From contig JAGTQZ010000005.1 of the NCBI GenBank assembly GCA_018396705.1, positions 1-42,901 on the forward strand: DNA of 42,901 bases. Reading direction: 5' to 3'. The DNA is from Candidatus Bathyarchaeota archaeon. Lineage in GTDB: Archaea > Thermoproteota > Bathyarchaeia > Bathyarchaeales > Bathycorpusculaceae. Position 1 is the first letter of the stretch. Each line of letters starts with the position of its first letter. The position numbers were made by a program, and so were the translations under genes. This document shows, piece by piece, positions 19,178 to 42,901 of the stretch. The notes under the pieces are model-generated. The model saw only the letters and a list, made by a program, of their open reading frames with translations, made no database searches and was not told the origin of the DNA.

Positions 19178-19318
19178 AATCAACCCTTCCCGCTTTCAGA
19201 GATAGAACAAGTTTAGAGTATATACAGCTTATATGTTTTGCCTTAAGTCACCATGGAAATAAAAGCAAATTCTACTCTCTGCTACGTCACAAGAAAAAAG
19301 AATGAGAAAGTAACGTAT

Positions 19319-22338: not shown

Positions 22339-22421
22339 ATTAATCAATCCTCCTTGGGTTCTTTTAAGTTTTAACCCGACGCTTAAAAATTTTCTCCAAA
22401 ACAAAATTTTTAATTAACTTC

Positions 22422-23231: not shown

Positions 23232-23247
23232 CGCATTCACCCTCCGT

Positions 23248-24261: not shown

Positions 24262-24303
24262 ATGAATCCCCGTGCTCAGAAAGGACACACTGGATGGTTA
24301 TGA

Positions 24304-26478: not shown

Positions 26479-27321
26479 TTAAGCCCATGTTGTTACTCCA
26501 CCGTCTATGAAAAGCACCTGCCCCGTTACGAAATTTGACGCATCAGAAGCAAAATACACTACCGCACCTATTAGGTCGTCAGGATATGCCCATCGGCCCA
26601 TTCTGATTCTAGAAAGCATTGACTTAGAAAGTTCTGGGTCACGCATTATATGTGCAGTGAGTGGGGTTGCCACAACTGTCGGTGCTATACAATTGACTTG
26701 AATATTGAAAGGAGCCCATTCACAAGCTAATTGTCTGGTAATCATTATTACAGCAGCCTTGCTAGTGCAGTAAGCGATGTAGTTTCTCGGCATGCCGAAG
26801 ACCCCTCTGACCGATGAAATATTAATTATTTTTCCCCTTCTCTGCCTTATCATAACTTTGCCGACTTCTTGGCATGTTAAAAACACCCCATTAACGTTAA
26901 CGTCCATGACTTTTTTCCAATCCTCAAATGGATAATCTTCAGCTGGTTTTGGAATATTCATTCCAGCATAGGTTACCAGTATATCTATTCTTCCGAAATT
27001 GTCCACCACTTGTTTGACCATATTTTTAACTTCCTCAGGCTTTGTTACATCACAACTGATTGCCATGGATTTTCGTCCGAGTTTCTCGATTTCACTCTTA
27101 ACTTTTTCAAGTTTTGTAAGATCCCTAGCCACTACCACCACATTTGCGCCAAAATCTGCGAGACCTAAGGCCGTTGGCCTCCCTAAACCCCCGCTTCCAC
27201 CCGTAACTATGGCAACTTTATCTTTCAAGTCAAAGAGCTTTTGGAAACCCATTGAACCGCTCTTTATGCGCTCTTCCAATACACGTTCATATTCTTCAGA
27301 TGACGTGAATGAAGCATTCAT
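26479..27321 (-). CDS. SDR-family oxidoreductase, candidate phloroglucinol reductase
   Basis: A classical SDR with cofactor motif TGGSGGLG (40-47), NISS (167-170), catalytic YCTSK (Y184, K188) and C-terminal FIDGG. A 30-residue N-terminal extension precedes the Rossmann fold. The NNAG motif reads TYAG here. VVVVARDLTKLE after strand 2 has an arginine (R66), as in NADP-dependent members. The ATG at 27321 overlaps the cupin stop codon (ATGA), so the two are translationally coupled; an upstream start at 27351 is less likely. Bacterial phloroglucinol reductases that make dihydrophloroglucinol are NADPH-dependent SDR-type enzymes, so this is the best candidate here. The family is certain; the substrate is inference. 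Confidence 0.88.
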   Translation of the reverse strand: MNASFTSSEEYERVLEERIKSGSMGFQKLFDLKDKVAIVTGGSGGLGRPTALGLADFGANVVVVARDLTKLEKVKSEIEKLGRKSMAISCDVTKPEEVKNMVKQVVDNFGRIDILVTYAGMNIPKPAEDYPFEDWKKVMDVNVNGVFLTCQEVGKVMIRQRRGKIINISSVRGVFGMPRNYIAYCTSKAAVIMITRQLACEWAPFNIQVNCIAPTVVATPLTAHIMRDPELSKSMLSRIRMGRWAYPDDLIGAVVYFASDASNFVTGQVLFIDGGVTTWA

Positions 27322-27674
27322 TTTTTGCCACCGCTTTTCGGATAGCTGCAAATAACCAGCATGCTCGCAGGCATATTTGTCTTGTTAATTAAGTAACGCT
27401 TCTCACCCGGTGGTATGTAGAGAGAGTCAAAAGGCTCTAGCACTATTTCTTTACCATCTTCAGTTGTTATAGTAACCTTCCCAGAAAGCATCACGTAAAC
27501 TTTTTCGAAATCGCTTGCGGACATTTCTGCTCCCCCGCCTGGAAGGAAGTGTGAGAGACCAACCCAGAAGTTCTCTACACCCGTGGTTTCTTTATGTTGA
27601 AGTCGCAGGGCAACCATGTTAAAGTGACCTGCTGCTGCATATGGTTTAGCCTCTTCCAATTTTACCTTCTTCAT
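27318..27674 (-). CDS. Cupin-domain protein
   Basis: A 118-residue single cupin with VENFWVGLSHFLPGGGAEMS (cupin motif 1 region), FEKVYVMLSGKVTI and SLYIPPGEKRYLINKT (motif 2). The first motif lacks the canonical HxH; the nearest histidine is in LSHFL. Metal binding may therefore differ or be absent. It overlaps the SDR gene by four bases and follows BKACE by about 50 bp. It could be a small isomerase or hydratase for a pathway intermediate, or a ligand-binding accessory. Confidence 0.78.
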   Translation of the reverse strand: MKKVKLEEAKPYAAAGHFNMVALRLQHKETTGVENFWVGLSHFLPGGGAEMSASDFEKVYVMLSGKVTITTEDGKEIVLEPFDSLYIPPGEKRYLINKTNMPASMLVICSYPKSGGKK

Positions 27675-27724: not shown

Positions 27725-28690
27725 TTAATATTTCTTAGGCTCCTTGGGTAATCCAAGCATTTCTCTTGCTTGCGCTGGCGTCGCTATTGGACGGTCCAAT
27801 TCCTTGGCAATTCTAACAATCCTTTCAACAAGTTGCGCGTTACTTTTAGCTAATTCTCCTTTCCGGTAAAATATATTATCTTCGAGACCTACTCTTACGT
27901 GAAGCCCCATAGCAATAGCTATTGTCGCAAGAGGAAGTTGAAAAGCACCGATACCTATTACGCTGACCACCGAGTTTGGAGGAACATGATACAACATTGA
28001 CATCAAATTCTGAGGTGTCGGCAACACCGCACTCGGAGCACCCATAACAAACTGGAAGAGGAAAGGTGGACGGATGAGATTCTTTTCCAATAGATTATAA
28101 ACCAATTGGAATTGTCCTTGATGATAAACCTCTAGTTCAGGTTTAATATTCTTCTCCAACATTCTTTGCGCATATAGTTCAGTTTCCCTCCAAGAGAAAG
28201 TTGGCGGCCAAACACTATCCATCATTATGTCCTCAGGTCTTCCAGAAAGCGGGGGCTCTCTCTTCTTCAAAAGCATCTTCCAAGCGAGAGGACCCATATT
28301 AAGACTAGCAATCTCCGGGTCGGCCTCAAGGGACCTCATCCTCTCTTCGGTGGTTAATTGCCCAAGTCCCCCTCCCGTTGTATTGTTAATTATTATGTCA
28401 GGACATAATTCTCTAATCTTCTTGTTTATTTTACGGTAATCTTCTGGATCAATGGAGGGACTAGCATAACCTTTTTTGGGATCCCTCGCGTGAATGTGAA
28501 CGATAGACGCTCCGGCTTTATACGCTTCATAGGCTTGCTGAGCTTGCTCCTCCGGAGTTTCAGGCAAATTTGGGTTAACCTCTTTTCCATGAACACCGCC
28601 TGTTAAGGCTACAGATATTATTAGTGGAGGTAATTCCCCTGCTCGAACTAATCTTAAATACTCTCGAGGGTCGTTATAATTCCAAGCCAT
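27725..28690 (-). CDS. BKACE-family beta-keto acid cleavage enzyme, candidate triacetate acetoacetate-lyase
   Basis: A TIM-barrel zinc enzyme (DUF849/BKACE). LIISVALTGGVHGKEVNP opens the barrel, and the metal-binding HxH is in ASIVHIHARDP (H65, H67 from ATG 28690). IINNTTGGG, LEVYHQGQF, PFLFQFVMG, SVIGIGAFQLPLA and HVRVGLEDNI are hallmark segments. BKACE enzymes condense a beta-keto acid with acetyl-CoA, giving acetoacetate and a new acyl-CoA. In bacterial phloroglucinol breakdown a member cleaves triacetate (3,5-dioxohexanoate). The adjacent hydroxyacid dehydrogenase-like gene and the AACS support this assignment. The start at 28690 is preferred over 28756 because homologues begin near the YNDPREYL segment. 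3-Dehydrocarnitine or 3-keto-5-aminohexanoate cleavage remain alternatives. Confidence 0.9.
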   Translation of the reverse strand: MAWNYNDPREYLRLVRAGELPPLIISVALTGGVHGKEVNPNLPETPEEQAQQAYEAYKAGASIVHIHARDPKKGYASPSIDPEDYRKINKKIRELCPDIIINNTTGGGLGQLTTEERMRSLEADPEIASLNMGPLAWKMLLKKREPPLSGRPEDIMMDSVWPPTFSWRETELYAQRMLEKNIKPELEVYHQGQFQLVYNLLEKNLIRPPFLFQFVMGAPSAVLPTPQNLMSMLYHVPPNSVVSVIGIGAFQLPLATIAIAMGLHVRVGLEDNIFYRKGELAKSNAQLVERIVRIAKELDRPIATPAQAREMLGLPKEPKKY

Positions 28691-28837
28691 ATGCTTAACA
28701 CCTACCCAATCTTGTAAACAAAAAGGCTTAAAAACGTTTATTTTAGAGCGATGCATTTCATCGGAAGATCTTTCAGAAAAATTTGGAGTAAGGAATTATA
28801 AAAAATGTTTTAAAAGATTATCACCGTTTCCAATTAA

Positions 28838-29821
28838 TTATTGTTGTTCTCTAAATTGTTGTTCTCTAAACTTAAGTAATCCTCTGCTTTTTAGTTGCTC
28901 TATGAGCCATTCGTTTCTCCGTTTCACCACTTCCTCTATCGACCTGCTTGTATAATCGTAGAAGCCTTTTCCTGTTTTGATTCCGAGCTCGTTCGTTTCC
29001 ACTTTATGTTTAAGAAGGTTTGGAGGTTTAAACTTGTCTCCTAGAGTGTTGTAAAGATACGTGTACGCATAAAGGAAGGTATCCATGCCTCCAAGATCCA
29101 CTATCTCCAACGGACCAAGAATTGGAAGCCTCAACCCAAGGGTCATCTTTACAGCAGTATCTATATCCTCGGCGGATGCAAGTCCTTGCTCCAACATTGA
29201 GATAGCTTCTATAACAAGGGCTGCTTGAAGTCTTACGCCTAAAAATCCAGGAGAATCTTTACATACAACTGGCACTTTGCCTAGCTTTGTAATTAGATCT
29301 CTTGTAATCTCAATGGTTTCTTGCGAAGTTCGTTCTCCTTTAACTATTTCAACTAATGGCATAAGGTGTGGGGGGTTCCACCAGTGGGTTCCGATAACTT
29401 TGTCAGGTCTGCTAGTTACGGAAGCCAGTTCCGTTATACTGAAGGACGATGTATTTGAAGCGAGGATTGTGTGTTTAGGACACGTATCGTCTAATTCTTT
29501 AAAGATGCTCTTTTTCAAATCCATATTTTCAACAACAGCTTCTATGACAAAATCGGCATCTTTAGCAGCTTCAGAGATTGTTTCTTTGAATTCTATTCTG
29601 GAAAGGGCCTTTTCCACCTCTTTCTGTGTAATTATTCCATTCCTCACTAAAAACTCCAAACCGGATTTTATTTGGTCGTATGTCTCCTTAAAAAGCTCTC
29701 GGCGTCTCCGAGTAATTGTTGTCTGATAACCGGTCAATGCACATGTTTGAGCGATACCATGCCCCATGATCCCCGCACCAATGACCGCAATCTTTCGAAT
29801 TTCCGAATCTTTCCCAAACAT
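28838..29821 (-). CDS. 3-Hydroxyacyl-CoA dehydrogenase family protein, candidate 3-hydroxy-5-oxohexanoate dehydrogenase
   Basis: The Rossmann motif GAGIMGHG (15-22) is followed by FVIEAVVENMDLKK and LASNTSSFSITELA. The catalytic region is GTHWWNPPHLMPLVEIVKG (H146, N149, E158). The C-terminal 3HCDH domain contains GLRLPILGPLEIVDLGG and GIKTGKGFYDY. After strand 2 the expected acidic residue is replaced by arginines (TITRRRRE), which suggests NADP(H). L-carnitine dehydrogenase shows that this family can act on free 3-hydroxy acids. Next to BKACE, oxidation of 3-hydroxy-5-oxohexanoate to triacetate is likely. The C-terminus ends in a tandem FREQQ repeat. GGGGGAAT precedes the ATG. Confidence 0.88.
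   Translation of the reverse strand: MFGKDSEIRKIAVIGAGIMGHGIAQTCALTGYQTTITRRRRELFKETYDQIKSGLEFLVRNGIITQKEVEKALSRIEFKETISEAAKDADFVIEAVVENMDLKKSIFKELDDTCPKHTILASNTSSFSITELASVTSRPDKVIGTHWWNPPHLMPLVEIVKGERTSQETIEITRDLITKLGKVPVVCKDSPGFLGVRLQAALVIEAISMLEQGLASAEDIDTAVKMTLGLRLPILGPLEIVDLGGMDTFLYAYTYLYNTLGDKFKPPNLLKHKVETNELGIKTGKGFYDYTSRSIEEVVKRRNEWLIEQLKSRGLLKFREQQFREQQ
28841..28870. repeat. Perfect 15-bp tandem duplication in the 3' end of the dehydrogenase gene
   Basis: The unit ttgttgttctctaaa occurs twice in tandem and encodes a repeated FREQQ at the C-terminus just before the stop. It looks like a recent slippage or duplication event that keeps the frame. Confidence 0.85.
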
Positions 29822-29984: not shown

Positions 29985-30917
29985 TTAGAGCGGTGGCTTT
30001 AGCTTCAACCTAAGTTTTCTTGAAATAACTCCCCATATTCCCTCCGGAAGCATCAGCAAGATTGCTAAGACAATGATCCCTTCTAACAGAAGGCTGAGAC
30101 CGATATACTGGGAGAGTAAATATCCAAGCGTCACGAATATAACACTGCCTATAATGGGACCAAATATCGTACCAACTCCACCAATAACAGCAACAAAAAG
30201 GAAATTTACAGTCCAAGAAATACTAAAGGCGGACGTGGGATGTAAATATGTGTGGTGGATAGCGTTAACTGCCCCCACAAGAGTTGTTACAAATGACGCT
30301 AAAACAAAACACAGCGCCTTACACCTGAAAGTGTTAACTCCTAAACCTAAAGCAGCATCTTCATCTTCGCCTATGCTTCTTAAACCGAACCCTAGTTTAG
30401 AATGGTAAAGGAAATATACAAGGAAAATCGAGAATATTCCCAGAACTAAGGCAGGATAGTACAGGATAACTGTTGAAACATAATAGGCTTCTCTAAAAAC
30501 TAATCCTTTACCAGCACCAACGAATTCCCAGCCGTTAAAGAAGAGTCTAATAACCTCAGCAGCAAGGAAGGTGCCTATTGCAAAGTAAACGCCACGCAAT
30601 CTCAGAAGCGGAAAAGATAACGCTGCCGCCAGCAGGCTTCCAATTAAACTAGCGATTATTACACTTGTCCACATCGGCACTCCATAATACATGACGAGAA
30701 CAGCTGTTGTGTAGCCTCCAACACCCATAAAAATCTGTTGACCGAGAGATACTATCCCCGCATGTTTAGCCATAAAACCCCAAACTTCAGCAGCTGCCAA
30801 ATACAGCAATATCAGTATTAAAGCGTCTCTTAAAAATCCACCAACCCAAAGAGGCAGCGATGCCATTAAAGCAAGTATGACAATTATGTAGATATGCTGT
30901 TTTCTAAATTGAATCAT
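29985..30917 (-). CDS. livM: LIV-type ABC transporter permease (LivM-like)
   Basis: A branched-chain-amino-acid-type (HAAT family) permease with about nine hydrophobic helices. Family segments are SLGQQIFMGVGGYTTA, LRLRGVYFAIGTFLAAEV, GLRSIGEDEDAALGLGVN (the EAA-like loop contacting the ATPase) and VIGGVGTIFGPIIGS. ATG 30917, with GGAGG upstream, starts just after the LivH stop at 30919. HAAT systems in anaerobes often import aromatic acids and other small organic acids, not only amino acids. This fits an uptake role for the island's substrate. Confidence 0.92.
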   Translation of the reverse strand: MIQFRKQHIYIIVILALMASLPLWVGGFLRDALILILLYLAAAEVWGFMAKHAGIVSLGQQIFMGVGGYTTAVLVMYYGVPMWTSVIIASLIGSLLAAALSFPLLRLRGVYFAIGTFLAAEVIRLFFNGWEFVGAGKGLVFREAYYVSTVILYYPALVLGIFSIFLVYFLYHSKLGFGLRSIGEDEDAALGLGVNTFRCKALCFVLASFVTTLVGAVNAIHHTYLHPTSAFSISWTVNFLFVAVIGGVGTIFGPIIGSVIFVTLGYLLSQYIGLSLLLEGIIVLAILLMLPEGIWGVISRKLRLKLKPPL

Positions 30918-30918
30918 C

Positions 30919-31794
30919 TTATAGTTTCCCTCCAAAAATTCCCTGAGGCCTCAGGTAAAGAATTGCCAAGATTACAAGGTAACAGAACATCAACTGGAAG
31001 CGGGATCCAAACAAGTAGCCTCCAAAAACTAATGCTTCACCCATGATAAAACCGCCAACAAGAGAGCCTTTAAGGCTTCCTAAACCTCCCATAACAACAA
31101 CTCCAAAAGACAACAACACGTATGTAGGGCCCGTGTCTGGATAGAAAGTGAAGGTCATACCTAAAAGCACACCAGCAATCCCAACAACCAGTAAGGCTAA
31201 TCCAGCGGCATAATTGTAAACAACTTCAGATTTTATTCCAAGCATCTTAGCAGCTTCTGGATCAAATGGCACAGCCCGCATAGCTTTGCCTAGATAAGTT
31301 TTCTTGAAAAACAAGAAAACAGCAATGAACACTATTAAAGCTGAAACGAAACCTAAGAGATAACGTGGAGAGGGGCTCAAGCCCAATACATCAATGTTGA
31401 TAAGCATGTAGCTTGGAATTATGCTTCGGGCATCTGCAGTGAACACTAAAAGCAGAATATTTTGTATTACAATGCTTAAGGCAAAGGTTACCAAGACTGG
31501 TTGATTCCCACCCATCGGAAGCACCCTATTTATCGTAAACTTTTGGAACAAATATCCCACAGCAAACATTATCGGTGCAACAATCAATATGCTTAGAAGC
31601 GGATCCATTCCCAGAAAGTCCATTATAGTAAATGACAAATACGCGGCTAAAATTGCAAAGTCACCGTGTGCTATATTTATAACTCTCATTATTCCAGCAA
31701 GCACAGATAAACCAAAAGCTGCCAGAGCAAAAAGTCCTCCAAGCAGAAAACCGTTGAATAGCAAGTTTATAATGTTTAAAATGTTTACATCCAT
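30919..31794 (-). CDS. livH: LIV-type ABC transporter permease (LivH-like)
   Basis: A HAAT-family permease: NLLFNGFLLGGLFALAAFGL at the N-terminus, VINIAHGDFAILAAYLSF, KAMRAVPFDPEAAKMLGI (cytoplasmic loop) and LLSFGVVVMGGLGSLKGSLV. I chose ATG 31794 (GAGG close upstream) because it begins one base after the LivF stop, and the longer frame from 31863 adds an unlikely basic leader. With LivM it forms the membrane channel of the transporter encoded here. Confidence 0.92.
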   Translation of the reverse strand: MDVNILNIINLLFNGFLLGGLFALAAFGLSVLAGIMRVINIAHGDFAILAAYLSFTIMDFLGMDPLLSILIVAPIMFAVGYLFQKFTINRVLPMGGNQPVLVTFALSIVIQNILLLVFTADARSIIPSYMLINIDVLGLSPSPRYLLGFVSALIVFIAVFLFFKKTYLGKAMRAVPFDPEAAKMLGIKSEVVYNYAAGLALLVVGIAGVLLGMTFTFYPDTGPTYVLLSFGVVVMGGLGSLKGSLVGGFIMGEALVFGGYLFGSRFQLMFCYLVILAILYLRPQGIFGGKL

Positions 31795-31795
31795 T

Positions 31796-32509
31796 TTATT
31801 CCTCACCCAGATAGGCTTTTTTGACACGTTCGTCTTTAAGGAGTGTTTGGGATGGACCATCAATCACTATTCTGCCATTCTCAAGAACAAAACCTCTGTC
31901 TGAGTTTGCAAGCGCACGGTCTGCATATTGTTCGACGAGAAGAATAGTGACGCCTTCATCGCGTATTTTATTTATAATATCATATATTTTTATCACTATT
32001 TTCGGAGCAAGCCCTAACGAAGGTTCATCCAATATCAGAAGCTTAGGCTTAGACATTAAACCCCGTGCTATGGCAAGCATTTGTTGCTCCCCGCCACTCA
32101 TGCATCCGGCGATCTGAGATTGCCTTTCCTTAAGTATAGGAAAAAGGTTGAAAACCCATTCAAGAGCGTCCTTTAATTCCTTTCTTGTTTCTGAAGCATA
32201 TGCACCAAGCTCAAGGTTTTCTCTCACTGTCATGTGGCCAAAAATCCTCCTACCTTCTGGTACGATGGTTATCCCCTGCCTTATGATTTCCGGTATGGAA
32301 ATTTTGTCTATTCGCTTTCCAAGGAAAGTTATTGATCCGCTTTTTGGGCTTAATACCCCAATAATAGTTTTACAAAGAGTTGTCTTACCAGACCCATTAG
32401 AACCAATTAATGTCGCAATCTCTCCCTTATTAACATTGAGGGACACATTCCAGAGGACTTGCAATTCACCATAGAAAACGTTTATGTTACGTACTTCAAG
32501 CATATGCAT
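31796..32509 (-). CDS. livF: LIV-type ABC transporter ATPase (LivF-like)
   Basis: A 237-residue ABC ATPase: Walker A GSNGSGKT, Q-loop region IVPEGRRIFGHMTVRENLEL, signature CMSGGEQQMLAIARGLM, Walker B LLILDEPSLGLAP, switch histidine replaced by glutamine in LLVEQY (normal for LivF). The VPEGR block is diagnostic for LivF. It lies 4 bp downstream of LivG and one base upstream of LivH, so translation is tightly coupled. Confidence 0.94.
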   Translation of the reverse strand: MHMLEVRNINVFYGELQVLWNVSLNVNKGEIATLIGSNGSGKTTLCKTIIGVLSPKSGSITFLGKRIDKISIPEIIRQGITIVPEGRRIFGHMTVRENLELGAYASETRKELKDALEWVFNLFPILKERQSQIAGCMSGGEQQMLAIARGLMSKPKLLILDEPSLGLAPKIVIKIYDIINKIRDEGVTILLVEQYADRALANSDRGFVLENGRIVIDGPSQTLLKDERVKKAYLGEE

Positions 32510-32513
32510 CGCC

Positions 32514-33236
32514 TTAGATTACCCATTTTTCCCCAAGATATGCCTCTATTACCCTTTGGTTACTTGTGACTTCCTCAAAGGAGCCTTCAGCAATTTTCTC
32601 TCCATAGTTTAAAACTATCACGCGTTCCACAATGCCTCGCAAAGCCTTCATGATATGTTCAACCCAAAATACGGTAACACCGAAATCATCTCTGATCCGT
32701 TTAATTAAGTCTTTGGCATCATTGATCTCTTTTGGGTTTAACCCGCTTAATGGTTCATCAAGCAACAGGATTTTAGGTTTTGTAGCAAGAGCTCGCGCTA
32801 TCTCCAGAAATTTACGTTCACAAATGTTAAGGTTACGTGCAGGTACATCTTTCTTATGATCCAGTCCAACAAACCTTAAATACTCGAGACTTTCACTGCG
32901 ACTTTTACTTAATCCATTTCCAGCCCCATATAACGCGCCGACCATCACATTTTCGAGAACGCTCATGTTTAGAAATGGTCTCACAAGTTGATAAGTCCTC
33001 GCGATACCCATTCGACAAATTTTATGCGACGGGAGGCCAGTAATATCCTCACCCATAAACTTTATTTTGCCTGAATCCGGTTTATAAACGCCTGAAATGA
33101 GATTAAATAGGGTTGTTTTTCCAGAACCGTTAGGTCCAATTAAGCCGACAACTTCCTTTTCATTGACCTTAAAACTTACGTCTTTAATGGCCTCCAAAGC
33201 TCCGAAACGCTTTATCAGACCAGTCCCTTCAAGCAT
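32514..33236 (-). CDS. livG: LIV-type ABC transporter ATPase (LivG-like)
   Basis: A 240-residue ABC ATPase: Walker A GPNGSGKT, MGIARTYQLVRPFLNMSVLE (LivG-type Q-loop), Walker B ILLLDEPLSGLNP and H-loop FWVEH. The signature motif is degenerate (LNICERKFLEIARAL rather than LSGGQ). It is the first gene of the 16-kb minus-strand island and faces a divergent promoter region shared with the MoaD-like gene. It powers import with LivF, LivH, LivM and the binding protein at 33747. Confidence 0.92.
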   Translation of the reverse strand: MLEGTGLIKRFGALEAIKDVSFKVNEKEVVGLIGPNGSGKTTLFNLISGVYKPDSGKIKFMGEDITGLPSHKICRMGIARTYQLVRPFLNMSVLENVMVGALYGAGNGLSKSRSESLEYLRFVGLDHKKDVPARNLNICERKFLEIARALATKPKILLLDEPLSGLNPKEINDAKDLIKRIRDDFGVTVFWVEHIMKALRGIVERVIVLNYGEKIAEGSFEEVTSNQRVIEAYLGEKWVI

Positions 33237-33677: not shown

Positions 33678-33746
33678 TAGTCAGTTTTGTTGCTAAAAAC
33701 TTAAAAAGAACAAGCGTTTTAAGACTCTATGCGAGGGATTGAAGTT

Positions 33747-35084
33747 ATGAAAAGGACAGCAGCTGCTATGACAAAAGTTCAAGCGACAATCGTCATCGTT
33801 GTAGTTGTGGTGGCTGCTGTTGTTATTGGGGCATACTACTTTTTGATGCAACCTTCCGGACCAGAATATATCAAAATTGGCTGGCCAGCACCTATTACAG
33901 GAGTGCTCGCTGGTTTTGCAGAAACCACACCTTGGGTCGTTCAGCAGGTTGAGGATTATGTTAATAAAGAGTTAGGCGGTGTGCACCTATCGGAGTATAA
34001 CAGAAAAGTGTTCATAAAAGTGATTCTGAGAGATACCAAAAGCGACAGTGACCAAGCAGCAACCATAGCGGCCGAACTAATAACAAAAGAGAACATTGAT
34101 ATAATGTTGGCTTTGTACTCTCCAGCTATGACCAATCCTATAAGCGCACAATGTGAAAAATACGGAGTACCTTGCATAGTTTCTCAAACGATAATAATAT
34201 CATGGTTGATGGGCGGACCCTACGAATGGTCATACTGTATAGGTCTGGCTGAACCAGACTATGCGGTGCTATTCTTTGACTTATTTGATTCAGCAGGAGA
34301 GCAAGTAAACAAAATTGTAGCCATGATCAATGCAGATGACCCTGATGGCAGAGGCTATTCAGAATCAATAAATAGGGTTGCAGCCGCACGCGGGTACACA
34401 ATTGTGGACGCAGGACTGGTGCCATATGGTACATCTGATTATTCGTCATATATTTATACATGGAAGAGCGCTAACGCACAAATTCTAACGGGTAACATGC
34501 GCTCTGTGGAGTTCGCGGCTCTCTGGAGACAATGTAACGAGTTGGGCTATAAGCCAAAAATCGTCGCGATGTCGAGGGCTTTACTATTTCCGTCATGGGT
34601 TGAGGCAATCGGCGGCGATCTTCCTAATGGACTAATAGGGTACACATGGTGGTCAGGATATCATCCTTACAGATCATCTATTACAGGTCAGACCACAAGC
34701 CAGTTGATCGAGGCTTGGGAATCTTACAGTAAAAAACAGTGGACACCAGTTTTAGGGCTTACTCACTGCGTGCTTGAAGTGGCGATAGACGCTGTTAAGA
34801 GGGCTGGAAGCCTTGACAAAACAAGAATAAAAGAAGCCTTGGCTAACATAAACTTGAATACAATCGCTGGACCTATCAATTTCAAGGCTCCGTTAACACC
34901 TCAACAACAAGCACGTTACCAGGCGGTCTCAAGTCTTATACAATATAAAGACCATTATGTGGTTGTGAAACCGGTGGCTATCCAGTGGGTAAAAGGGACA
35001 AAGTGGCCTTGGGAAATGCAAATAATTTACAACTGGGAGAGCCCAGAAATACCTGAAACTGCAGAAATGTTTCTCTTAAGCTAA
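33747..35084 (+). CDS. LIV-type ABC transporter substrate-binding protein, membrane-anchored
   Basis: A Peripla_BP_6-type receptor. Residues near the N-terminus (TIVIVVVVVAAVVIGAYYFL) form a single membrane anchor or signal, after which KIGWPAPITGVLAGFAETTP begins the receptor domain. DTKSDSDQAATIAAELITKE and later FAALWRQCNELGYKPKIVAM are family blocks. ATG 33747 has GAGGGAT upstream, and is preferred to ATG 33729. It faces away from the other four transporter genes across a shared divergent region. The ligand is likely an aromatic or hydroxylated acid by context. Confidence 0.88.
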   Translation: MKRTAAAMTKVQATIVIVVVVVAAVVIGAYYFLMQPSGPEYIKIGWPAPITGVLAGFAETTPWVVQQVEDYVNKELGGVHLSEYNRKVFIKVILRDTKSDSDQAATIAAELITKENIDIMLALYSPAMTNPISAQCEKYGVPCIVSQTIIISWLMGGPYEWSYCIGLAEPDYAVLFFDLFDSAGEQVNKIVAMINADDPDGRGYSESINRVAAARGYTIVDAGLVPYGTSDYSSYIYTWKSANAQILTGNMRSVEFAALWRQCNELGYKPKIVAMSRALLFPSWVEAIGGDLPNGLIGYTWWSGYHPYRSSITGQTTSQLIEAWESYSKKQWTPVLGLTHCVLEVAIDAVKRAGSLDKTRIKEALANINLNTIAGPINFKAPLTPQQQARYQAVSSLIQYKDHYVVVKPVAIQWVKGTKWPWEMQIIYNWESPEIPETAEMFLLS

Positions 35085-35107: not shown

Positions 35108-35792
35108 CTAACATTCCCGAAGTGCTTTAATGTAGTTTCTTGAAGTGGTAACCCAGCCGAAAAGTTGTTTAATATTCCATAGAGTTGCTCTCCTTGTATA
35201 TTTTGGCCCTGTGGCTGCACAGCAATCAGATATTAGAACGGGCCAAAAATCCTTTGAAAATGCGTCGCGAATTGTGGATTCAACGCAAATGTTTAAAGCA
35301 ATTCCAGTGAAAAACAGATATTTTACACCTAAACTTTTTAGTATGTCCTCTAATTCTGTGTTAGTAAAGCCACTGTACCTTTGTTTATCGATAATAAAAT
35401 CCCCCGCCAAGGGTTTAATTTCATCAATGATTTCAGCACCCCATGTTCCTTTGATTAACAGTTTATCCTTGAGTTCCGGACTTTTACGCATTAACAGTAG
35501 GCTGTATTCTTTCCAATAATTGGGGGAGTTTTGACTTCCAGCGTCAGATAGATCTGGCGAGTATACATGCCTCACATATATTATCTTTAAACCCAGCTTC
35601 CTTGAAATATCTAAAACGTCCTTGGTGGGTTTGATTACGCGTCTAAATTTTGACAAGTCAAAGCCAATTATGTCAAACATTCCGCCAGGACTTACAAATG
35701 CGTTTTGCATATCTACTACGATAACTGCGGACTCTGTAAGCTTTACTGACAGGTTCTGGATCAGCTAATATTGTTATAGCTTCTCTTTCCAT
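35108..35792 (-). pseudogene. Isochorismatase-family cysteine hydrolase with N-terminal frameshift
   Basis: The intact frame (35710 to 35108) starts at MQNAFVSPGG, just after the position of the catalytic aspartate. The family core VVDMQNAF shows that the true N-terminus lies upstream: in frame, IQNLSVKLTESAVIVVD precedes that M but has no start codon. An ATG at 35792 with AGGGTTTGAT begins MEREAITILADPEPV, the typical family leader, in another frame. One extra base near 35740-35750 would explain the break. Lysine (LLIKGTWG) and cysteine (ALNICVES) of the Asp-Lys-Cys triad are intact. Members hydrolyse amides or isochorismate-like compounds. It may be real decay or an assembly error. Confidence 0.7.
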
Positions 35793-35902: not shown

Positions 35903-36949
35903 ATGATCATTAATAAGGTGTTACGTGTGGAAATAGTAGACTTTGAAGCCCACTTCTACACGAAAGAATATGTTAAAACTCTACTGAAAAATGAGGACCA
36001 CCCAAAATATAAAAAAGATGAAACAACGAGCACCTACTGGCTGTGGTACACTCCCCACGTGCAAGAGCCGCATACCGAACAACTGTTAGAAAGACTTCTC
36101 GACGTGAATGAAAAACGTATCAAAGATATGCATGATGCTGGAGTAAAAATGCAAGTTCTCAGCCTCTCTGCTCCAGGATGTGAACAATTTGAAGCTTCAA
36201 TAGGAAAAAAGCTTGCTAGAAAAGTCAATGACGAACTTGCCTCAGTTATTGAAAGAAAACCAGATAGATTTGTCGGATTAGCTGCACTTGCCCCACAAGA
36301 TCCAGGTGAGGCTGCTGATGAACTTGAGCGCGCTGTGAAAGAGTTAGGTCTTAGAGGGTGGAAAACTCACTCTAACATCCGTGGAGCCTACATTGATGAT
36401 AAGAAATACTGGGTTATATTTGAAAAGGCAGAAAAGTTAGGGGTTCCAATATTTCTACATCCTACCGTTCCAACAATAGATGTGCTCAGTGATACATATG
36501 GATATGCGTTAGCTGGACCAGCTTTCGGTTTCACCTTTGATACAGCACTATGCATGATGCGTTTAATCCTGAGTGGAATCTTTGATAGGTACCCGAATCT
36601 AAAGATTGTGCTAGGCCACTTTGGCGAAACCATGCCTTTCCTACTAAACCGTCTAGACTTTCCAATTGTAAGACCATGGGTTGCTAAAAACGTAGATATT
36701 AAAATCTCAAAAAAGCCAAGTGATTACTTTAAGAGCAATGTGTACGTGGCTACAAGCGGCGAATTCCATAATCCTGCAATTATGTGTACCCTTCAGGTAA
36801 TGGGCTGTGATAGAGTGTTGTTCGCTTCAGATTATCCTTATGAAGATTCAATGAAAGCTGTTGAACGTGTTAAAGCATTACCATTACCAGAAGAAGAAAA
36901 AAGTAAGATATGCCACTTGAATGCGAAAACCTTACTAAATATACGTTAA
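35903..36949 (+). CDS. Amidohydrolase-family hydroxybenzoate decarboxylase (gamma-resorcylate/2,3-DHB decarboxylase-like)
   Basis: A 348-residue metal-dependent TIM barrel. The first metal ligands are E15-A-H17 (VDFEAHF), the E-x-H pattern of 2,6- and 2,3-dihydroxybenzoate decarboxylases, not the H-x-H of hydrolases and ACMSD. H186 (FLHPTVP), H239 (LGHFGE) and D310 (FASDYPYE) complete the site. Blocks VLSLSAPGCEQF, RFVGLAALAPQDP and LILSGIFDRYPNLKIVLGH are typical. Members remove CO2 non-oxidatively from hydroxybenzoates. In this island it could make pyrogallol from a trihydroxybenzoate for the transhydroxylase. A TATA-like aataaattta about 25-35 bp upstream suggests a leaderless or short-leader transcript; GTG 35927 is an alternative start. 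Confidence 0.85.
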   Translation: MIINKVLRVEIVDFEAHFYTKEYVKTLLKNEDHPKYKKDETTSTYWLWYTPHVQEPHTEQLLERLLDVNEKRIKDMHDAGVKMQVLSLSAPGCEQFEASIGKKLARKVNDELASVIERKPDRFVGLAALAPQDPGEAADELERAVKELGLRGWKTHSNIRGAYIDDKKYWVIFEKAEKLGVPIFLHPTVPTIDVLSDTYGYALAGPAFGFTFDTALCMMRLILSGIFDRYPNLKIVLGHFGETMPFLLNRLDFPIVRPWVAKNVDIKISKKPSDYFKSNVYVATSGEFHNPAIMCTLQVMGCDRVLFASDYPYEDSMKAVERVKALPLPEEEKSKICHLNAKTLLNIR

Positions 36950-37028
36950 CATGGGTGGGAAAACCTGTAAGGAAAATTTTTATTAGAAGATGAAAACAAT
37001 GGGATGTTAAAAATGGTGATCATTGAAA

Positions 37029-38876
37029 ATGGCTCACGGGTACGCTGGCAAAATACTTTGTGTGGACTTGTCAACTAGAGAAGTGTATACAAAAAATCTT
37101 GATGCAGATTATGTTTACCCAGTAATTGGCGGGGCAGGACTAGGCATAAAAATCCTGTACGATGAAGTTGATCCAAAAGAGGACCCATTATCTCCGAAAA
37201 ACAAGTTAATATTTTCTGTCGGGCCGCTAGTGGGCTCTGGGACACCATGCACCAGCAGAATGGCAGTTGTGGCAAAGTCTCCGTTGACTGGTACCGTTGG
37301 GATGTCGCTCTCCGGCGGGTATTTTCCGGCGGAGCTTAAATTTGCAGGATACGATGCAGTGGTGATTTCTGGGAAAGCTGATACCCCAGTCTATATTTGG
37401 ATAGAAGACGACAAAGTAACCATTAGCGATGCATCTGGCCTGTGGGGACTCACAACCACAGACACTCAAATCGTACTGAAAGAAAAACTTAACAGACCAG
37501 ATGCAAAGATCGCGTGTATAGGACCTGCTGGTGAGAAACTTGTTCGATATGCTTGTATAATAAACGAGAGGAGAGCTGCTGGAAGAAAGGGCTTAGGAGC
37601 TGTGATGGGTTCAAAGAACCTGAAAGCTATAGCAGTTAAAGGAACAAATAAAGTGAAACCAGCTGATGAAGGCAGATTTAGAAAAGCCATCAAGAAAATG
37701 CATGAATTAATGAAACAGAGCCCAGTACTTTATCCATCCTTTTCAAAAATGGGCACCCCAATGACGGTGGAAGTTACTGCAGAATTAGGAATTTTACCAG
37801 CAAAAAACTGGACAGCCACAGGCATTTTTGCTCCGGTAGAAACTCTAGGCGGAGAAACGCAATCAACCTATACAATCACTAGAGTTGGTTGTTATGGATG
37901 CCCAGTGAGATGCGGACAAGTAAAACTAGTCAAGCAAGGCCCGTTTGCCGGGTTTATGACGGAAGGCCCAGAGTTTGAGTCAACCTATAGTCTAGGAACT
38001 ATGGTTGGTGTTAACTACTTTCCAGCGGTAATAGCAGCTGACAGATTATGTGATGAATACGGATTAGATACTATTTCAACAGGGGCTACTGTGGCATTTG
38101 CTATGGAACTCGTGGAAAAAGGCATTCTATCGCGAGATGAGGTAGACGGCTTAGATTTAACCTTCGGCAATTACGAAGCCTTCTTGAAGATGATTAGAAA
38201 GATAGCGTTCAGAGAAGGTTTCGGAAGCGTATTGGCAGAAGGAGTAAAACAAGCAGCAAAAATAATCGGCAGAGGCTCTGAGAGATACGCGTTACACATC
38301 AAAGGCATGGAACTCCCAGGATATGATGTTAGAGGGGCAAAAGCTCACGGATTAAGTTACGCTACCGCATACACCGGAGCAGATCACAATAGAGGCTACG
38401 CGATACAGGAAATTTTCAATGTGCCAGTTCCGTACAAGGTTGACAGATTAGCCATAGAAGGTAAAGGCAGGCTATGTAAATGGAATCAGGACGTCAGAAC
38501 AGCAGTTTGTGATTGTATGCCTCTTTGCGTGTTCGTATTTGACATGGGATTAGCGGCGAACGCCCTAGAGCTTACCGCTGAGCTTTATGAGGCGTTAACG
38601 GGTCTAGAGATAAAGGCTGAAGAAGTGCAAAAAGCGGGAGAAAGAGTGAATAATATTGCAAGGTTATTCAACGTTAAGGCTGGATTCACAAGGAAAGATG
38701 ACGTCTTACCAGCGAGACTCATGGAAGAGGGAATACCGGGAGGACCATCAAAAGGTCAAATGGTCAGTATTGAAGATTTAAACAAAATGTTAGATGAGTA
38801 CTACGATGCTAGAGGGTGGGACAAAGAAACAGGGATACCGACAAAAGAAAAGCTATCTGAACTGGGAATAAAATGA
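37029..38876 (+). CDS. Aldehyde:ferredoxin oxidoreductase family tungstoenzyme (AOR 2)
   Basis: The second AOR-family protein of the window: GYAGKILCVDLSTREVYTKN and FSVGPLVGSGTPCTSRMAVV in the N-terminal domain, Fe-S cysteines in VGCYGCPVRCGQ (C288, C291, C295), a later CDCMPLC, and the C-terminal GGPSKGQMVSIEDLNKMLDE. ATG 37029 has GGTGAT at good spacing; a TTG two codons earlier is less likely. It differs throughout from AOR 1, so they are diverged paralogues rather than a recent duplication. It lies between the decarboxylase and the PhlG-like gene. It may oxidise or reduce an aromatic aldehyde/acid, or supply reduced ferredoxin. Confidence 0.9.
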   Translation: MAHGYAGKILCVDLSTREVYTKNLDADYVYPVIGGAGLGIKILYDEVDPKEDPLSPKNKLIFSVGPLVGSGTPCTSRMAVVAKSPLTGTVGMSLSGGYFPAELKFAGYDAVVISGKADTPVYIWIEDDKVTISDASGLWGLTTTDTQIVLKEKLNRPDAKIACIGPAGEKLVRYACIINERRAAGRKGLGAVMGSKNLKAIAVKGTNKVKPADEGRFRKAIKKMHELMKQSPVLYPSFSKMGTPMTVEVTAELGILPAKNWTATGIFAPVETLGGETQSTYTITRVGCYGCPVRCGQVKLVKQGPFAGFMTEGPEFESTYSLGTMVGVNYFPAVIAADRLCDEYGLDTISTGATVAFAMELVEKGILSRDEVDGLDLTFGNYEAFLKMIRKIAFREGFGSVLAEGVKQAAKIIGRGSERYALHIKGMELPGYDVRGAKAHGLSYATAYTGADHNRGYAIQEIFNVPVPYKVDRLAIEGKGRLCKWNQDVRTAVCDCMPLCVFVFDMGLAANALELTAELYEALTGLEIKAEEVQKAGERVNNIARLFNVKAGFTRKDDVLPARLMEEGIPGGPSKGQMVSIEDLNKMLDEYYDARGWDKETGIPTKEKLSELGIK

Positions 38877-38943: not shown

Positions 38944-39573
38944 TCATTTATTGGTTGTAATAGCATATAAATATGGAAGAATTGTGGCAAGGTTTCTCAT
39001 TTCCTCTACACAATGTTGGAAAAGATTTTTGGCCATCTCGTAGTTCGCGTAGTTCGGATTTAGCCAGAACCTGCTTCGCATTTCGCACCCGACATCTCTG
39101 TCCCTAACAAAGTGAGTCATACGGCCAATTTCAACCTCAATTTTTTCATTTCTTAAAAACAAGTGCGCACAAATAGCGGTTGCCCTCGCCTCCTCAAATC
39201 TTGACGTGTCGTAAAATTTTGATGGTTCTTGGAAGTGGATTCTTAATTTTGCAGCTGGTGGTTTGCCGCCTAACGTCTCTTCAACTATGTGGCTTGCCCC
39301 AATGTAATGCCCAGGTTTCCATTGGTCGTCCCAAGCGCCATAAAGATGATCTATTGGATGCCAAAGTTTGTAGATTTGCGTGTGTTCCTTTGGAGATAAC
39401 CCATACGCAAACCACCACTCTATCATTTCCCTCTTGCAATAGGGCATCCTTGTAAGTACCGCCACAAGATAATAGCCATTGGACAGACGCATGTAACCGC
39501 TCTCAAACGGCAAGTAGCCAGGTTCAAGGAGACGGTTAATTTGCTCGAACGGCAACTCTAAATCTTTTAGCAT
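38944..39573 (-). CDS. PhlG-like (DAPG hydrolase family) C-C hydrolase, candidate dihydrophloroglucinol cyclohydrolase
   Basis: A 209-residue protein with the DAPG-hydrolase pattern: MPYCKREMIEWWFAYG, YKLWHPIDHLYGAW (H72, H76), HYIGASHIVEE (E98, E99), MTHFVRDRDVGCEMRSRFWL (H154, E164) and LFQHCVEEMRNLA. PhlG is a zinc enzyme that cleaves an acyl C-C bond of 2,4-diacetylphloroglucinol, a beta-diketone-type hydrolysis. Dihydrophloroglucinol is also a cyclic 1,3-diketone, so this protein is the best candidate for its ring-opening hydrolase. The protein is shorter than PhlG (about 296 aa), mostly at the N-terminus. GGGGGAG lies upstream of the ATG. It is divergent from the transhydroxylase gene, so the two may share a promoter region. 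Confidence 0.83.
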   Translation of the reverse strand: MLKDLELPFEQINRLLEPGYLPFESGYMRLSNGYYLVAVLTRMPYCKREMIEWWFAYGLSPKEHTQIYKLWHPIDHLYGAWDDQWKPGHYIGASHIVEETLGGKPPAAKLRIHFQEPSKFYDTSRFEEARATAICAHLFLRNEKIEVEIGRMTHFVRDRDVGCEMRSRFWLNPNYANYEMAKNLFQHCVEEMRNLATILPYLYAITTNK

Positions 39574-39813: not shown

Positions 39814-42438
39814 ATGGAGGAAAAGCGCTTGCACGAACCCGAGAGGGAATTCGGTAAAAAACTTGAGGATGGAACAAATATCTTTACTAGTTGTACAGTC
39901 GGTGGGCCTGTTTTTGTATATGTTAAAGATGGGAAAATTAAGCGAGTCACTCCTATAATATTTGGGCCGGATGATGCTGAGTCGTGGACCATTGAGGCTA
40001 GAGGTAGGAGTTTTTCTCCTCCAAGGAAAGCTTTGCTCGCTCCGTATGTTTACACCGTCAGGTCTAGGGTTTACTCTCCGGAAAGAGCGCTTTATCCGCT
40101 TAAGAGGGTAGATTTTGATCCAGACGGTGATAGACATCCAGAAAACAGGGGCAAATCGGGGTATGAGCGTATTAGTTGGGAGGAAGCCCTAACAATAGTC
40201 ACGAACGAGATGCAACGTATAAAACGGAAATATGGTGCCGCAGCCATTGCAGCTACAACTTCATCCCATCATGAATGGGGAAACATTGGATATCGACACA
40301 GCGCCTTCTATAGATTCTTCAATCTTCTAGGTTTTACGTATGTTGAACATAATCCGGATAGTTGGGAAGGATGGCACTGGGGTGCAATGCATCATTGGGG
40401 TTTCTATTGGAGGTTAGGTGTGCCGGAGCAGTACGACTTGTTGGAAGATGCATTGAAAAATTGTGAAATGATTGTTTTTTGGTCCTCCGATCCGGACTCA
40501 ACGCGCGCGATAGGCTATCAGGGATACGAATCTGCTCCATGGCGGCAGTGGTTAAGAGATTTAGGAGTGAAAATGGTTTTCATAGATCCATATTACAACT
40601 ATACTGCAGTATTGTTTGCTGATAAATGGCTTGCTCCCCGACCGGGAACCGATACTGCTCTTGCGCTGGCAATAGCATATGTCTGGATCACCGAGGAGAG
40701 GTATGACAAAGAGTATGTGGCAACTCACACGTATGGCTTCGAGGAGTTTAAAAAATACGTTCTGGGAGAAGAAGATCAAACTCCTAAAACTCCAAAATGG
40801 GCTGAGGAATTAACAGGTATACCCGCAAGAGAAATAAGAGCTTTGGCGAGAGAGTGGGCCTCAAAAAGGACGATGTTGGCTGCCGGAGGGTTAGGTGGAT
40901 GGGGAGGTGCCTGCAGAGCAGCTTATGGGCATGAATGGGCCAGAATGATGGTTCTTTTGGCTGCAATGCAAGGGCTGGGAAAACCTGGAGTTAACATATG
41001 GGGAACCACAAAGGGAGCCCCATTCAATGCTGGCTTTTATTTCCCAGGATACGCAGAAGGTGGAATTTGTGGAGATCCTGACAAAACAGCTGCGACCTTT
41101 GAGTTGCTTGGAAGAGGAATGGTTAAGAAACCCACTGTATGTCGCATATTCCAGCACATACCCCGATTGAAACTCCCGGAAGCAATATTAAATCCCCCTG
41201 TCGAATGGAAAGCCAGAGGATTTAGCGGTGAATCGATAGAAAGCCAGTTTAGATCCTTTACATATCCCACGAAAGGTTATAATGAAGTGAAAATGTTATA
41301 CAGGTACGGTGGATCTTACATTGGCACCATGACGGAGACAAATAAATGGGCTCAAATGTACAGGAGCTCAAAATTGGAATTTGTTGTAAACCAGACAATG
41401 TTCGTTAATGAACCAGAAACAAAATTTGCAGATATCATATTACCCGCTTGTACACAATTTGAGCGTTGGGATATAGGTGAGTGGGCTAGTTGTTCAGGAT
41501 ACATACCACATTCTTCATGCGGGACAAATCATAGAGTTATTGTTCTTCAGATGAAATGCATAGAACCGCTGGGTGAATCTAAATCTGACTACCAAATATT
41601 TGCTGAAATAGCCAAAAGATTAGGTTTCTATGATGAATTCACCGAAGGAGGCATGACTGAGCTCGACTGGGTTAGAAGAATGTTTGATGTCAGCGACCTG
41701 CCAAAATATATAACATGGGAGGAATTCAAAAGAAAAGGTTACTTTGTCGTTCCACTTCCTAAGCCATATAGGCCTACCCCTGCATTACGCTGGTTCTATG
41801 AAGGCAGACCAAAGGATACACCTGATTGGGGTCCAGCTCCACGGGATAGCCCAATTAACCGGGTTGGCTTGCCGACACCAACTGGCAAAATAGAATTTGT
41901 TTCACAAACCCTCATGCGTTTTGACCCAAATGATAAAGAGAGACCACCACTGCCACGCTTTATTCCATCATGGGAGGGGCATCTAAGCGAACTTACCAAA
42001 AAATACCCATTGCAAATGGTTACTCCTCACCCTCGATATTCCTATCACACGCACCATGACGGTAAGGGAACATGGATAAACGAAATTCCAGAACATAGGG
42101 TGCTTAAAGAAGATGGACACTATTATTGGATTATTCGCATCAATCCTTTGGACGCTGAAGCTCGTGGAATTAAGGACGGTGACATAGTTAGGGTATACAA
42201 TGATAGAGGATCCGTCCTCTGCGTGGCAAAAGTAACACATAGAGTCAGACCGGGTGTTGTCCACGGATGGGAGTCATGCAACATCTATGAACCAATCGGT
42301 GAACCCGGTGATCCAAACTCGGTGGACCGTGGGGGCTGTCTAAACATACTAACGCCTTCAAGATATCAATCTAAAAATGCTTGCGGTATGGCGCCTAACT
42401 CTTGCCTAGTGGAAGTGGAGAAGTGGAGGGGACAGTAA
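39814..42438 (+). CDS. athL: Pyrogallol:phloroglucinol transhydroxylase-like molybdopterin oxidoreductase, large subunit
   Basis: An 874-residue DMSO-reductase-family protein almost the same length as the Pelobacter acidigallici enzyme (875). Segments such as GGPVFVYVKDGKI, SSHHEWGNIGYRHS, HNPDSWEGWHWG, GGLGGWGGACRA, FYFPGYAEGG and CSGYIP match it closely. The Mo-ligand serine is S183. Pocket residues equivalent to its H144, Y152, R153, D174, W176, W354, Y404, C557 and Y560 appear as H152, Y160, R161, D182, W184, W363, Y413, C560 and Y563. There is no N-terminal CxxCxxxC Fe-S motif and no Tat signal, as in that enzyme, so it is cytoplasmic. It would move a hydroxyl of pyrogallol to give phloroglucinol using a tetrahydroxybenzene co-substrate. 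The small subunit starts immediately after the stop. I matched residues from memory of the known enzyme; the substrate is inferred. Confidence 0.88.
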   Translation: MEEKRLHEPEREFGKKLEDGTNIFTSCTVGGPVFVYVKDGKIKRVTPIIFGPDDAESWTIEARGRSFSPPRKALLAPYVYTVRSRVYSPERALYPLKRVDFDPDGDRHPENRGKSGYERISWEEALTIVTNEMQRIKRKYGAAAIAATTSSHHEWGNIGYRHSAFYRFFNLLGFTYVEHNPDSWEGWHWGAMHHWGFYWRLGVPEQYDLLEDALKNCEMIVFWSSDPDSTRAIGYQGYESAPWRQWLRDLGVKMVFIDPYYNYTAVLFADKWLAPRPGTDTALALAIAYVWITEERYDKEYVATHTYGFEEFKKYVLGEEDQTPKTPKWAEELTGIPAREIRALAREWASKRTMLAAGGLGGWGGACRAAYGHEWARMMVLLAAMQGLGKPGVNIWGTTKGAPFNAGFYFPGYAEGGICGDPDKTAATFELLGRGMVKKPTVCRIFQHIPRLKLPEAILNPPVEWKARGFSGESIESQFRSFTYPTKGYNEVKMLYRYGGSYIGTMTETNKWAQMYRSSKLEFVVNQTMFVNEPETKFADIILPACTQFERWDIGEWASCSGYIPHSSCGTNHRVIVLQMKCIEPLGESKSDYQIFAEIAKRLGFYDEFTEGGMTELDWVRRMFDVSDLPKYITWEEFKRKGYFVVPLPKPYRPTPALRWFYEGRPKDTPDWGPAPRDSPINRVGLPTPTGKIEFVSQTLMRFDPNDKERPPLPRFIPSWEGHLSELTKKYPLQMVTPHPRYSYHTHHDGKGTWINEIPEHRVLKEDGHYYWIIRINPLDAEARGIKDGDIVRVYNDRGSVLCVAKVTHRVRPGVVHGWESCNIYEPIGEPGDPNSVDRGGCLNILTPSRYQSKNACGMAPNSCLVEVEKWRGQ

Positions 42439-42901
42439 ATGGCGAATTGGGCAATGGTGGTTGACATAACGAAATGCAACGGATGTTACAACTGTTTCAT
42501 TGCATGTAAAGATGAATTCTGGGATAACGAATATCCTCCATATTCGTCAGCGCAACCTAGGCATGGACATTTCTGGATGCAGGTTTTCACAAGGGAGAGG
42601 GGCCAATTCCCCCATGTGCGCGTGGCATATATGCCCGTACCCTGCATGCACTGCGACAACGCGCCATGTATTGACAGGGCAAAAAACGGTGCAATTTACA
42701 AAAGGCTAGACGGGATCATAATAATTGACCCAGCAAAATCGTTCGGTCAGAAACAGTTAGTCGAAGCTTGCCCGTATGGCGTTATTTTCTGGAATGAGGA
42801 GAGAAGAATTCCGCAGAAATGTACTTTTTGCGCCCACCTCCTTGACAAAGGCTGGAAAGAGCCGAGATGTGTGCAGGCATGTCCAACTGGAGCACTGATA
42901 T
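42439..42901 (+). CDS. athS: Transhydroxylase small subunit, [4Fe-4S] ferredoxin-like, 3'-truncated by window edge
   Basis: The ATG directly follows the large-subunit stop (TAAATG), a coupled pair. The 154 residues present include cysteines in ferredoxin groupings: C13, C16, C19, C23; C69, C72, C77; C111; C128, C131; C144, C148. These twelve fit three [4Fe-4S] clusters, as in transhydroxylase and other DMSO-reductase electron-transfer subunits. Stretches CMHCDNAPC, GAIYKRLDGIIIIDP, CPYGVIFWNEE and QKCTFCAHLLD closely resemble the Pelobacter beta subunit. Whether the C-terminal Ig-like domain of that subunit is present cannot be seen. Confidence 0.88.
   Translation, partial: MANWAMVVDITKCNGCYNCFIACKDEFWDNEYPPYSSAQPRHGHFWMQVFTRERGQFPHVRVAYMPVPCMHCDNAPCIDRAKNGAIYKRLDGIIIIDPAKSFGQKQLVEACPYGVIFWNEERRIPQKCTFCAHLLDKGWKEPRCVQACPTGALI

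Follow-up and report, generated by a model that had tools for sequence, protein, structure and literature searches.

A gene close to the end of a bathyarchaeal contig probably encodes a true pyrogallol-phloroglucinol transhydroxylase that would feed a phloroglucinol pathway, and we assign a probability of roughly 70% to this reading. It is supported more strongly by the phloroglucinol-degradation genes on the same contig and beside a paralog than by the residues of the active site. The observations made here concern homology, fold, pocket residues, gene neighbourhood, and co-occurrence. The window, i.e., the whole analyzed stretch of 42,901 nt, is the entire contig (C5), which ends at position 42901, and the two genes in question are the following:

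39814..42438, plus strand: pgtL-like gene, large (molybdenum) subunit of the pyrogallol-phloroglucinol transhydroxylase type (sequence, Pfam, pocket residues, fold)
42439..42901, plus strand: pgtS-like gene, 4Fe-4S small subunit, first 154 amino acids, cut by the contig end (Fer4_11 and others)

The large subunit gene is an intact open reading frame of 874 codons for amino acids, and the pgtS-like frame begins at 42439, the base directly after its stop codon. The complete small subunit that is encoded beside a paralog with 85% identity matches 4v4c_B along its length (250 bits, E = 1.9e-73). The large subunit is 59% identical to the transhydroxylase of Pelobacter acidigallici, and a phmmer search of the PDB retrieved 4v4c_A (pyrogallol hydroxytransferase) as the top match with a full-length alignment and 1130 bits, followed by the DMSO reductase family with 286 bits. 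Three Pfam domains scored above the gathering score, namely PF21423 (AhtL-like N-terminal), PF00384 (molybdopterin oxidoreductase domain), and PF01568 (dinucleotide-binding domain). An AlphaFold2 model of the window protein, built with 40 window and locus sequences as input, had a mean pLDDT of 90.4 and a pTM of 0.91. Foldseek placed 4v4c_A first (TM 0.95). The superposition on the Pelobacter structure that the earlier note had proposed gave, for the predicted structure, an rmsd of 1.5 Å over 849 aligned residues of 4v4c (VIA-align, Z 50.8). Resorcinol hydroxylase RhL and PgtL are grouped as one family of serine-coordinating Mo-bisPGD enzymes acting as phenol hydroxylases (PMC10100899), and the window protein has the ligand serine, the fold and domain set, and the paired PgtS-type Fe-S subunit of this family. 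The sequence score, PF21423, the fold match, and the beta subunit strongly argue against a generic molybdopterin reductase.

The residues that line the pocket of the P. acidigallici enzyme, and the role of each, are reportedly those described by Messerschmidt et al. in 2004. The ten residues named in the earlier note were compared position by position with the portion of 4v4c_A present in the alignment (862 residues, 8–869). All ten align in both proteins (window/4v4c_A): H152/H144, Y160/Y152, R161/R153, D182/D174, S183/S175, W184/W176, W363/W354, Y413/Y404, C560/C557, and Y563/Y560. The conservation claimed in the earlier note was thus found, as were its offsets of +8, +9, and +3. Its remark that the lengths differ by one residue is correct in number (874 versus 875), but the near-equality is coincidental, because the N-terminus of the window protein is about 17 residues longer than that of the P. 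acidigallici enzyme and this is offset by internal gaps.

The information content of the ten positions is not uniform. The counts refer to those 48 of 61 aligned family members that share 50% identity or more with the window protein. H144, S175, W176, and Y404 are invariant in all 48, and the ligand serine (S183, aligned with S175) is even invariant in 61 of 61 aligned rows. D174 was found in 45, Y152 in 44, and Y560 in 39 of the 48 relatives. The remaining three positions are variable, with R153 in 14/48, W354 in 8/48, and C557 in 11/48. Judged from this alignment, most of a large family shares six or seven of these positions, which say little, and only R153, W354, and C557 discriminate; most of the listed residues mark the family, and these three mark a subgroup. 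With column conservation allowed for, the joint expectation of a match at ten of ten positions is about 0.02. Besides P. acidigallici and the window protein, only two of the aligned members have the complete set, namely the 85% paralog from the same genome (L002) and a Desulfatiglandales protein (L044). A fragment from an archaeon of the same order (G056, L020, 88% identity) matches at all four testable positions. The nearest relative of the P. acidigallici enzyme (L009, 75%) has a cysteine at 153, and the Burkholderiales and rhizobial relatives have Y/W at 153, H/F/M at 354, and S/T/A at 557. Several of the latter are encoded among VOC-family proteins, fumarylacetoacetate hydrolases, and acyl-CoA synthetases. 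Another paralog from the same genome (L003) carries M354 and S557. Three Thaumarchaeota-labelled members (L017, L018, L056) lack Y560, and Y152-R153 is replaced by A/S or S/T in them; from these residues, they probably act on another substrate.

The pocket residues had been put forward as an argument for the same chemistry rather than that of a generic molybdopterin reductase. The second half of this argument holds. The same chemistry is probable, but the residue list does not show it: most listed residues recur throughout a large family, some members of which are found in ring-cleavage contexts, so the argument is weaker than claimed, and the objection that the earlier note itself had foreseen, pocket residues shared with other members, applies in part.

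A tree of 37 rows (IQ-TREE, LG+G4) placed the window protein and L002 on an archaeal branch of their own. P. acidigallici, L044, actinobacterial rows, and proteobacterial rows formed a strongly supported set that excludes both. Constraining the five rows with full or near-full pockets to one clade was rejected (p-AU 2e-60), and so was the same constraint after addition of the nearest actinobacterial rows (p-AU 2e-4). The phylogeny that had been proposed as a check therefore did not bear out an exclusive common origin of the window protein and its P. acidigallici counterpart; as the full-pocket rows are not monophyletic, an argument from exclusive orthology is ruled out. The full pocket is either an old state retained in several lines or was reached more than once, and both origins fit selection for one substrate. 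Because the one-clade constraint was rejected, the window protein is filed as a family member that would work in a PgtL-like manner and not as a proven isofunctional orthologue. It resembles P. acidigallici PgtL/PgtS (4v4c) in fold, position of the serine ligand, the ten pocket residues, and pairing with an Fe-S small subunit; it differs in its archaeal host, in its branch separate from the bacterial PgtL clade, and in the paralogs with altered pockets in its own genome.

The genome contains five members of the transhydroxylase-type family, and the 85% and the 43% paralogs share one 455-kb contig. In the phylum, the family is rare: at E ≤ 1e-120, it was detected in 9 of 398 sampled genomes, four of which have matches with at least 66% identity. 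An actinobacterial sediment MAG (G433, L014) has 25 members, an expansion that suggests many phenol substrates. A second subfamily with 35–44% identity is mostly archaeal (L004, L005, L030-L038, L062, L080, L084); its members keep H144, D174, and S175, have a glycine at 354 and gaps over the C557-Y560 loop, and two of them (L032, L037) have Tat-like N-termini. In a clade of proteobacterial and Moorella members, the molybdenum subunit is preceded by an N-terminal extension of about 120–150 residues (L039 9620-10000, also L040, L042, L045, L058, L063, L066-L083). No Tat motif that would explain these extensions was found in them, and a Pfam search of the L039 stretch gave no match. The third paralog has cofactor genes, MoeA and MobA-like, at a distance of about 6 kb (L022 3381-6311). 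A RidA-family gene adjoins a transhydroxylase gene in the genome under study (G000, L024 9192-9659) and lies near one in G056 (L027 1800-2294), with 90% identity between the two.

The genes upstream of pgtL on the contig are listed below.

38944..39573, minus strand: short PhlG/phloretin-hydrolase-like C-C hydrolase, 209 amino acids, divergent from pgtL (PF18089)
37023..38876, plus strand: aldehyde ferredoxin oxidoreductase family protein, tungsten enzyme type (PF02730 and PF01314)
35903..36949, plus strand: amidohydrolase of the non-oxidative aromatic-acid decarboxylase group, candidate trihydroxybenzoate decarboxylase (PF04909)
35108..35710, minus strand: isochorismatase-family hydrolase, RutB-like, below the cut-off
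33729..35084, plus strand: periplasmic binding protein of a branched-chain-amino-acid type ABC importer, candidate for aromatic uptake (PF13458)
29985..33236, minus strand: two permeases and two ATPases of the same importer type, at 29985-30935, 30919-31863, 31796-32509, and 32514-33236 (PF02653, PF00005)
28838..29821, minus strand: TfD-like protein, candidate 3-hydroxy-5-oxohexanoate dehydrogenase (triacetate-forming; 3HCDH)
27725..28756, minus strand: TAL-like protein of the BKACE family, candidate triacetate:acetoacetate lyase (PF05853)
27318..27674, minus strand: small cupin protein, recurrent in phloroglucinol operons (PF07883)
26479..27351, minus strand: PGR-like short-chain dehydrogenase (SDR), candidate phloroglucinol reductase (PF13561); the start is the first in-frame TTG, and the true start is probably later
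24422..26401, minus strand: acetoacetate-CoA ligase (TIGR01217 equivalog, 825 bits versus a cut-off of 521)
22458..24288, minus strand: two CoA-transferase subunits, at 22458-23294 and 23248-24288 (PF01144)
21151-22404, minus strand: iron alcohol dehydrogenase
20234-21121, minus strand: F420-type luciferase-like oxidoreductase
19319-20155, minus strand: second amidohydrolase
17336-19183, minus strand: second aldehyde ferredoxin oxidoreductase

The C-C hydrolase matches phloretin hydrolase 5xe5 (E = 5.6e-18) and PhlG 3hwp (E = 4.5e-13). The top PDB match of the amidohydrolase at 35903..36949 is 5-carboxyvanillate decarboxylase (216 bits), followed by gamma-resorcylate decarboxylase. By homology, these two enzymes could supply trihydroxybenzenes. 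On either side of the phenol island, one protein of the aldehyde ferredoxin oxidoreductase family is encoded; both score below the NCBIfam equivalog cut-off, the one at 37023-38876 far below, and they may have a role in ring reduction or in aldehyde oxidation.

The anaerobic phloroglucinol pathway of Clostridium scatologenes consists of PGR, DPGC, TfD, and TAL (PMC10470551). The minus-strand run from 29821 to 22458 encodes, in this order, the TfD-like and TAL-like proteins, the cupin, the SDR, the acetoacetate-CoA ligase, and the two CoA-transferase subunits. As in C. scatologenes, candidates for the SDR, TfD, TAL, and the cyclase are present, with the ligase at the end of the route; in contrast, the cyclase is unlinked, and the pathway is coupled to a transhydroxylase and a branched-chain-amino-acid type importer. 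Diagnostic residues agreed to different extents. In CsTfD, the CoA-binding residues K56 and N221 are lost and S117, H138, and N188 are kept (PMC10470551). The TfD-like protein agrees at four of these five positions, with I for K56, R for N221, and S117 and H138 kept, whereas N188 is V. The TAL-like protein has V at the position of Kce E14, where CsTAL has W (W16).

No ring-opening cyclase of the PF04199 family was identified within the 43-kb window. The genome has two, both outside the window contig. One lies upstream of the 85% paralog at a distance of 0.8 kb (L024), and the other is located between the 43% paralog and an SDR. Both contain a WPY motif, which equals the W-x-Y pair reported for CsDPGC (placed by motif only), where W20 and Y22 replace I32 and L34 of isatin hydrolase (PMC10470551). 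The cyclase beside the 85% paralog shares 62% identity with its counterpart in a Moorella cluster (L100), and the Desulfatiglandales L097 cluster has a 58% match at its edge. The SDR is 56% identical to that of L100 and 48–51% identical to the SDRs of L097.

Close copies of the BKACE protein (at least 89% identity) and of the cyclase were each found in only two of 61 related genomes, and these are the same two, G000 itself and G025. The latter keeps the TfD-BKACE-cupin-SDR-ligase block at 71–89% identity and has no close transhydroxylase, and the phloroglucinol module therefore needs none. In G025, the module is situated at the edge of a 6.8-kb contig beside a gene judged by eye to be transposase-like (L108 6033-6734), a neighbour that would fit mobility of the module. 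If the preferred reading is right, the archaeal route is apparently made up of modules that anaerobic bacteria have as well. In Desulfatiglandales L097, a single 14-kb stretch encodes a binding protein related to that at 33729..35084, which flanks pgtLS there, followed by PgtS, PgtL with a 10/10 pocket, two permeases, two ATPases, TfD, SDR, BKACE, cupin, a further SDR, and the cyclase; this PgtL (L044) thus lies within about 10 kb of the SDR, TfD, BKACE, cupin, and cyclase genes. In Moorella L011, cupin, TfD, BKACE, and SDR directly precede PgtLS, the pocket of which matches at only seven of ten positions. The cupin adjoins TfD, TAL, and SDR in both bacteria.

The main rival reading is that the enzyme belongs to the same family but acts on a different phenol, either in the manner of resorcinol hydroxylase or by hydroxyl transfer on some other di- or trihydroxybenzene or the corresponding acid. 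The family covers a broad range and has undergone repeated duplication, as the five copies in this genome and the 25 in one actinobacterial MAG illustrate. Relatives with 51–53% identity in ring-cleavage contexts (VOC-family proteins, fumarylacetoacetate hydrolases) keep H144, S175, W176, and Y404 and mostly also D174, Y152, and Y560, and own paralogs such as L003 (M354/S557) have other pockets. Resorcinol hydroxylase RhL of Azoarcus anaerobius, for which a btdh/bqd gene context would be expected, is the characterised close relative of PgtL. A search of about 100 genomes from the family of a betaproteobacterial genome (G432) and of 399 from its order yielded no identifiable RhL sequence, and gene context yielded none either; it is mainly because none was found for comparison in these roughly 500 genomes that the rival keeps weight. 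The complete pocket including the three variable positions and the adjoining phloroglucinol-pathway genes make it, nevertheless, rather unlikely. A generic DMSO/TMAO-type reductase would share the Mo-bisPGD fold and the serine ligand, and DMSO reductases are the next-best matches in sequence and fold (in VIA-align, TorA reaches Z 42.0 and the DMSO reductases about 35). However, the gap to 4v4c amounts to about 845 bits, the NCBIfam models for S/N-oxide reductases remained far below their cut-offs (bisC 391/1018 bits, dmsA 352/778, torA 290/1465), and the AhtL-like domain and the transhydroxylase-type beta subunit do not fit. This reading, already refuted on sequence and fold, has a negligible probability.

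The archaeal context could also be a binning or assembly artefact around a bacterial island. The genome is a draft MAG of 9 contigs, the relatives of the archaeon mostly lack a transhydroxylase, and in a survey the family was mostly bacterial (PMC10100899). The genome contains, however, an archaeal SSU rRNA (RF01959, 1528 bits). It has no mismatch to the Bathyarchaeia primer MCG242dF. To the probe MCG493 (sequence from PMC10477458), it has one mismatch, and the two sites are 169 bases apart; on sequence, these matches support an assignment to the Bathyarchaeia. The window contig carries genes for an Lhr-type helicase, an ATP-dependent DNA ligase, and KaiC and V4R proteins. On the 455-kb contig, about 6 kb separate the 85% paralog from the gene for ribosomal protein S26e, and about 14 kb separate the 43% paralog from a chaperonin gene of the TCP-1/cpn60 family. 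In addition, an 88% copy is present in a genome of the same order, and the copies of the phloroglucinol module with 71–89% identity belong to a genome of the same family. Contamination is unlikely given these genes on the window contig and the S26e gene near the paralog, and an artefact is very improbable.

For the preferred reading, a true transhydroxylase that feeds a phloroglucinol pathway, the following course can be proposed; every reaction, substrate, direction of flux, and physiological role in it is what we infer from the observations above. The cytoplasmic molybdenum subunit and its Fe-S partner would move a hydroxyl group with 1,2,3,5-tetrahydroxybenzene as co-substrate and thereby convert pyrogallol to phloroglucinol. 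By analogy with P. acidigallici, the molybdenum would be held by two pterins and S183, and H152, D182, and Y413 would act as acid-base groups. The SDR (26479-27351) would reduce phloroglucinol to dihydrophloroglucinol, the ring would be opened by the Mn-type cyclase encoded on the other contig beside the 85% paralog, and the TfD-like dehydrogenase would oxidize the product to triacetate. Triacetate would be cleaved with acetyl-CoA by the TAL-like enzyme, and acetoacetate would be activated by the acetoacetate-CoA ligase. Several results count against this reading, namely the V in place of N188 in TfD, the V instead of W in TAL, the location of the cyclase on a different contig, the non-monophyly of the full-pocket enzymes, the G025 module without a transhydroxylase, and the 7/10 pocket of Moorella L011. 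That a full route from pyrogallol-type phenols to acetoacetyl-CoA, independent of oxygen, exists in the Bathyarchaeon, consisting of transhydroxylation, ring reduction, ring opening, and cleavage, and perhaps starting also from acyl-phloroglucinols and trihydroxybenzoates, is given even odds.

A 2023 survey of 47,011 enzymes of the superfamily contained no archaeal RhL/PgtL members (PMC10100899), and a literature search for an archaeal pyrogallol transhydroxylase found no report. According to a 2025 review, canonical aromatic-catabolism genes are absent from a lignin-degrading Bathyarchaeon, and the mechanism of ring cleavage was described as unknown (PMC12694404). If the proposed reading is true, it would provide a specific, testable ring-opening route in lignin-associated archaea, in at least some lineages, and a concrete way for abundant sediment microbes to consume plant phenols under anoxic conditions. 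In addition, the paralogs with different pockets are a set from which the choice of phenol in the RhL/PgtL family can be learned.
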